Shown here in pieces: positions 40,207-41,679 of a DNA stretch of 41,679 nucleotides. The stretch comes from an uncultured Verrucomicrobiales bacterium (GTDB taxonomy: Bacteria; Verrucomicrobiota; Verrucomicrobiia; Verrucomicrobiales; DEV007), in the NCBI GenBank assembly GCA_913058215.1, contig CAJXQE010000011.1, forward strand, positions 1 to 41,679, read 5' to 3'. A program made the translations under genes and the position numbers. Below the pieces are notes generated by a model, which did not search any database, was not told the DNA's origin, and saw nothing but the letters and a program-made list of their open reading frames with translations. Every line of letters starts with the position of its first letter. Positions within the stretch are counted from its first letter, which is position 1.

Positions 40207-40266
40207 GATTTGCTGCCTCGCTTACGTTAGTTGCAACCCTTGCATGGCAATACGATTGATTGCGCA

Positions 40267-41633
40267 ATGCGAAAGCTTTCCGCTTCACTCCTTGCAATCG
40301 TGCTCTCGACTTCCCCTGCTCCGGCAGCGGATCTCGATCCATTGGCTTTGCTTCGCGAAAATTGTGTGAGCTGCCATACGGACGCGAAACGCAAAGGAGG
40401 TCTGCTGATCGACTCACGGGAATCGCTTCTCAAAGGAGGCGACACTGTTGCCGCCATCGTTCCCGGAAAGTCCGGAGAGAGCTTCCTCGTCGAGACTCTT
40501 TTCCCGGATGCGGATCCCCACATGCCGCCAAAGGAGCAAATGGAGCCCAGGGCCATCGCCGCCATTGAGAAATGGATTGATGAGGGAGCAAAGTGGGATG
40601 CTGAAAAATGGGCCAGACTTAATCTCCCGGAAAAGTTCGACGTCACTCGCGGCAAGCTCCCGGAGCGATATGAACCCGTTTTTTCTGTCGCAATCTCTCC
40701 CGACAACAAAATTCTCGCAGCCGGTCGGGGAGAAGTCATCGATTGGTATACGGTTAAGCCCGGCGAAGGAGACAAGCCCGTTCCCGAACTGGAGTTCCGC
40801 TCCTCTTCGACAGGCCACGCAGATGCTATTCAATCACTCGCTTTCTCCCCGGACGGCAAGACTCTCGCTTCGGGCGGTTTCCGCTCAGTCAAATTCTGGA
40901 ATCCTGCCGCCCCTGAAAAACCGCTTAAGGAAATCACAGCCCCCTTCCTCGGACGACTGACTGCTCTCCTCTATTTGAAAAGTTCCGATCGCCTCCTTGC
41001 CGCCGATTCCTTTCCCTCGCAGATCGGCCGCCTTCATGTAATCGATTTAAAAACCGATCAAGCCACAACCTTCAACTCCGCTCACCGTGACAGTATCTTT
41101 GACCTCTCAATGAGTCCCGACGGAAAGAGCTATGCCACTGCTTCCGCTGATAAGATCATCACCGTTCGAAATACTTCCGACCACGAGATCACCAAGAGGC
41201 TCGAAGGACATACCGGCTATGTAATTGCGACAGCATTCAACCCGGAAGGTACAAAACTCGCCTCGGTTGGCGATGATGAAGAGATCAAAGTTTGGGAATT
41301 AGAATCCGGAAAAAAGGTGAGTTCATTTGTCAGTTCCAAATCAGGCCCGCTCCACGCAGTGGCCTGGCTTGTTGATCCGACGAACAAAAAGAAGAAGGAC
41401 GAGGAGAAAGACAAAGAAAAGAAAGAAGCAATCAACACTGATCGAATCATTGCCTTCACCGAATCAGGTCGCCCCGATTCATTTACGGACCTCAAGGAAC
41501 ATGAAGGAGAACAACGCTCCACAGGAGCGAAGGCACGTGGTTTCGACAAGGTCGACACTCCCCTCTTTTCCATGACCTTTCACTCAGAGAAGCAGTGGTT
41601 CTTCGCAGGTGGAGAAAATGGCAAGCTCTACGT
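40267..41633 (+). CDS. Planctomycete-type cytochrome c - WD40 protein, 3' end missing
   Basis: From ATG 40267 the product has a signal peptide (MRKLSASLLAIVLSTSPAPA), then a PSCyt1-type cytochrome c domain with the heme motif CVSCH (residues 33-37) and a downstream PHMPPKEQM segment that could supply the axial ligand. WD40-type repeats follow (IQSLAFSPDGKTLASGG, LSMSPDGKSYATASADK, ATAFNPEGTKLASVGDD). A Lys/Glu-rich insert lies near residue 375-390. The start at 40267 is favoured over a TTG at 40231. Real coding stops at 41633, where adapter sequence begins, so the C terminus is lost. Confidence 0.83.
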
Positions 41634-41679
41634 CTGTCTCTTATACACATCTCCGAGCCCACGAGACCGAGGCTGATCT
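41634..41679. other. Illumina Nextera adapter and index, not genomic
   Basis: CTGTCTCTTATACACATCT (41634-41652) is the Nextera transposon mosaic end. CCGAGCCCACGAGAC (41653-41667) is the read-2 adapter. CGAGGCTG (41668-41675) matches an i7 index, and ATCT (41676-41679) begins the flow-cell adapter. Translation through it gives the artificial tail CLLYTSPSPRD on the preceding protein. Confidence 0.97.

Follow-up and report, generated by a model that had tools for sequence, protein, structure and literature searches.

The question raised by the 3′ end of this contig is whether its last 46 bases belong to the genome at all. In the stretch of DNA that was analysed (the window; 41,679 nucleotides), it is virtually certain that these bases are untrimmed library adapter, and neither genome nor a biological feature. 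A sequence-only reading had divided them into transposon mosaic end, read-2 adapter, 8-base index and the start of P7, and comparison with published oligos matched this division exactly: positions 41634–41679 are identical at every base to the opening 46 bases of a Nextera read-through. The features at the end of the window are the following.

40267–41633, + strand: real gene, truncated at its 3′ end; its product opens with a signal-peptide-like stretch and has a planctomycete cytochrome c (PSCyt1) domain and WD40 repeats (Pfam, homologues)
41492–41677, − strand: spurious 61-residue open frame, ISLGLVGSEMCIRDR..., that starts in the reverse-complement adapter and runs antisense to the real gene (mechanical ORF list)
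41634–41652, + strand: 19-base Tn5 mosaic end of the Nextera adapter (exact match; found 469 + 465 times across the assembly)
41635–41673, + strand: 13 artificial residues CLLYTSPSPRDRG (translation), where relatives have W-D/N
41653–41667, + strand: remainder of the Nextera read-2 adapter; these 15 bases are the 3′ end of the i7 primer in reverse complement (exact match to the oligo in the passage of PMC6791352)
41668–41675, + strand: 8-base i7 sample index CGAGGCTG, common to all 26 i7-side tails that are long enough
41674–41676, + strand: artificial stop codon TGA, formed across the index–P7 boundary, with two bases from the index and one from P7 (translation)
41676–41679, + strand: ATCT, the first four bases of the reverse-complemented P7 flow-cell primer (match to the passage of PMC6791352)

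The order of parts at the window end is Tn5 mosaic end, read-2 adapter, index and ATCT of P7, so that 41634–41679 reads CTGTCTCTTATACACATCT CCGAGCCCACGAGAC CGAGGCTG ATCT. In terms of the iNext/Nextera oligos given in the passage of PMC6791352, the 46 bases are a C followed by the iNext read-2 stub, CGAGGCTG and the first four bases of the reverse-complemented P7; the Nextera-compatible stub TGTCTCTTATACACATCTCCGAGCCCACGAGAC sits at 41635–41667, and the index and four P7 bases make up the next 12 bases. The window end is identical to these oligos letter for letter, but its sample index is unlike the examples in that passage; CGAGGCTG is number 10 in the index list excerpted from PMC8185305. By chance, 3e-21 matches to the 46-mer would be expected (7.67 Mb, both strands). 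No further mosaic end was found elsewhere in the window.

The adapter leftover is an ordinary technical error, and hundreds of copies of it are present in this genome. The assembly (7,665,812 bases in 595 contigs) contains 934 copies of the 19-base mosaic end (469 forward and 465 reverse) and no copy of the reversed control pattern of the mosaic end, and the mosaic end was absent from the 32 other genomes of the genus. The longer 34-base i7-side adapter occurs 472 times in the assembly, and the 28-base i5-side adapter 376 times. By arithmetic rather than direct count, and with at most one copy per end assumed, 934 of the 1190 contig ends (78%) carry the mosaic end. The 62 copies that were returned as loci by the searches were read individually, and all 62 have tails of 24–51 bases that run to the contig end. 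The full i7-side adapter is present in 30 tails, with the index visible in 26 and reading CGAGGCTG in every one of them; the full i5-side adapter is present in 28, with the index visible in 23 and reading AGAGGATA throughout; the other 4 tails are shorter than the full adapter. The tails read therefore point to one library with one index pair.

So many copies at contig ends could also suggest a repeat, namely a natural Tn5/IS50-type transposon end at which contigs break because the mobile element is repeated and has a mosaic-end-like terminal inverted repeat, and the 19-base mosaic end does derive from the ends of Tn5. However, what follows the mosaic end is adapter, sample index and P7, not transposon sequence, and each of the 62 copies read runs into one or other of two adapters whose index pair does not vary. 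The native Tn5/IS50 outside end had no match in the genome at up to one mismatch. With index and P7 bases in place and the native outside end absent at that threshold, a native transposon end was rejected, and we regard it as extremely improbable.

Library adapter inserted by a transposase should also leave a mark on the genomic side of the junctions. The Tn5 target consensus AGNTYWRANCT is quoted in a passage of PMC3046479. At junctions cut by the transposase, one would expect the ten genomic bases next to the adapter to follow A-GNTYWRANC, and a footprint score was defined as the mean number of matches over the eight specified consensus positions, with nearby positions as background. The mean was 4.11 of 8 for the 62 junctions of this genome (2.71 in the nearby background), 3.92 for 86 junctions in viral contigs (background 2.84) and 4.03 for 93 junctions in other genomes (background 2.80); for each of the three means, 0 of 10000 resamples was as high. 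At the junction of the window, AGCTCTACGT, 6 of the 8 consensus positions agree. The fit per position is imperfect: A at −3 shows no clear enrichment, A at −2 is enriched, and in the 62 own junctions deviations are also seen at positions −14 and −11, beyond the 9-base target; none of this speaks for a biological origin. The Tn5 target preference at the junctions supports adapter origin. This attribution, proposed in the sequence-only reading, also has on its side the 934 copies against none in the 32 genus genomes, their position at contig ends and the single index pair in the copies read, and relatives in which the gene goes on with other residues.

The events that produced the window end can be outlined as follows. 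Tn5 tagmentation would have cut the DNA just after position 41633, leaving an insert shorter than the read, and reads would then have continued past the insert into read-2 adapter, i7 index and the first bases of P7. Left untrimmed, such reads probably led the assembler to extend the contig into the adapter and to stop there. The PSCyt1/WD40 gene is cut at this point and, as its translation shows, carries 13 fake residues and a fake stop codon. The passage of Turner (2014; PMC3906532) describes how, with short Nextera XT inserts, read 1 enters the reverse complement of the read-2 transposase adapter, the index and the primer, and that such sequence can affect de novo assembly; the window end has the same order of parts. 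Whereas that passage describes read-through in reads, here it survived assembly and binning into a genome of a species collection. In the passage of PMC6460022, exactly these adapters are trimmed before assembly.

The gene that runs into the adapter is genuine up to the junction. Both of its Pfam matches are above the cut-offs (PF07635, 45.5 bits; PF00400, 89.8 bits), matches to the protein were found in all 32 genus genomes searched (own genome included), and the genus homologues share 51–66% identity with it. The last forward frame in the mechanical ORF list spans 40231–41676 and opens at TTG 40231; judged from the sequence, ATG 40267, which opens the signal-peptide-like stretch, is a likelier start than this mechanically chosen one. 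The frame reads ...LYV, then CLLYTSPSPRDRG, then TGA, and the genuine sequence stops after residue 468 of the listed frame. Sixteen homologous loci were aligned (L064–L078 and L080), and the own locus L063, the partial L079, which ends earlier, and the more distant L081–L092 were left out. L077 ends before the junction, and thus 15 of the 16 aligned homologues are informative. An alternative even less probable than the transposon end, that the gene of the source species really ends in CLLYTSPSPRDRG, agrees with a frame that is open to a stop codon, but was rejected, as all 15 homologues that reach the junction go on with W and then D or N where the window has C-L, the same tail stands on unrelated frames at other contig ends (6 of 17 junctions, the window's included), and a fitting true tail was found on contig C411.

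The artificial tail thus agrees in kind with what the sequence-only reading had claimed, that the protein ends in a non-biological CLLYTSPSPRD and that its last 16 residues are misleading, and differs in letters and count: the tail is CLLYTSPSPRDRG, which ends PRDRG, and the number of whole residues contributed by the adapter is 13 instead of 16, since the codon GTC at 41632–41634 encodes Val whatever its third base. Two points go beyond that reading, the false stop codon and the genome-wide extent of the adapter. Among 13 indices tried, only CGAGGCTG and TAGGCATG produce a stop at the 41674–41676 codon. Since the TGA is formed by index and P7 bases, the cut gene can pass as complete.

In relatives, another gene follows directly after the PSCyt1/WD40 gene, and the best match to this downstream gene in the own genome lies on contig C411 (75% identity; the next best match has 44%). 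At the C411 end, an in-frame KPAAKPAAKPAAKPAAKPNTDPQKK* stands just before the downstream gene, and the contig ends (L213, last bases, + strand) inside a 12-base tandem repeat that encodes KPAA and would plausibly form the genuine C-terminus of the cut gene; the relative L067 has a long K/P/A-rich C-terminal tail. Synteny therefore places the true end of the cut gene very probably on C411, across a gap. The window end and the fetched part of C411 share no overlap of at least 9 bases, so that an unassembled gap separates the two, and the KPAA repeat may have helped to break the assembly there. The fetched C411 end carries no adapter, and neither does the 5′ end of the window. Positions 1–400 of the window are multi-copy, with 7 other partial matches in the genome at 77–93% identity, and the window's 5′ end probably broke there because of this repeat sequence.

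In related genomes the adapter is rare, and in public collections it recurs. A 27-base form of it was found in 2 of 387 sampled genomes of the phylum, one of them this genome and the other with 2 copies, so heavy contamination is unusual in the group. At least 120 stretches in IMG/VR carry the adapter, and in the 80 loci listed, the distance to the sequence end is at most 60 bases for 81 of 82 copies. For GTDB representatives the corresponding figures are at least 118 stretches and, in the 80 loci listed, 84 of 86 copies within 60 bases of the sequence end; 55 of these 80 loci have titles that name runs beginning SRR3933. The 34-mer was also found in 41 of 50,697 phage records and 9 of 72,556 plasmid records. 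These contigs and records share the same 34-base sequence with the window, in the contig collections nearly always at ends, but their indices mostly differ from the window's, and in finished phage and plasmid records several copies are internal.

Some internal copies can be described individually. In the complete record of Escherichia phage vB_EcoM_G4507 (MK327946.1, 76726–76759; L336:1501–1534), the 34-base adapter sits between two adjacent CDS, with part of it inside them. Both CDS carry the name putative baseplate hub subunit and tail lysozyme, and in this record a single gene appears to have been split by the adapter. In an archaeal MAG (L248:3943–3976), adapter and index stand mid-sequence next to a run of N, and hence at a scaffold gap. 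An IMG/VR contig of 9.7 kb has the adapter in its interior (L151:4953–4986), a possible false join. In the nine plasmid records (H21–H29) the adapter is mostly away from the record ends, and in three of them (H22, H27 and H28) an annotated gene overlies it.

The effect on predicted proteins was followed at the 62 own junctions, where the longest open frame (at least 150 codons) enters the adapter in 17 and leaves it in 22. Of the 17 inward frames, 6, the window's included, carry CLLYTSPSPRD although the frames are unrelated. The tails seen at own junctions were CLLYTSPSPRD, CLLYTSDAAD, VSYTHLRAHET, VSYTHLTLPT and LSLIHI. Six of the 22 outward frames have a methionine inside the adapter (MCIRDR or MCIRDS), which could serve as a false start. 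On its reverse complement (for example the window's 41634–41679 on the − strand), the adapter offers an ATG in the MCIRDR/S frame, which may act as a false start codon for genes that lead away from contig ends. CLLYTSPSPRD was not found in the literature searched, a result that concerns this search and not everything in print, and MCIRD gave five matches that, judging by their listing, are seemingly unrelated.

On balance, we think it somewhat probable that contigs ending in adapter give public collections of microbial and viral sequence a recurrent, barcode-dependent set of fake protein ends, in the form of tails, starts and in-frame stops. As one joint reading held with the same modest confidence, the fake tails would comprise CLLYTSPSPRD, VSYTHLRAHET, LSLIHI and CLLYTSDAADE, the fake starts MCIRDR/S, and some indices such as CGAGGCTG would add a fake in-frame stop that hides truncation. 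If true, such ends could bias gene catalogues and protein training sets.

In summary, the adapter finding matters for data quality only. Both kinds of adapter end should be trimmed from the assembly, the last gene of the window should be marked as partial at 41633, and in protein sets motifs such as CLLYTSPSPRD or MCIRD should be read as signatures of adapter. The practical trap is the false stop codon, which leaves a truncated gene that does not look truncated.
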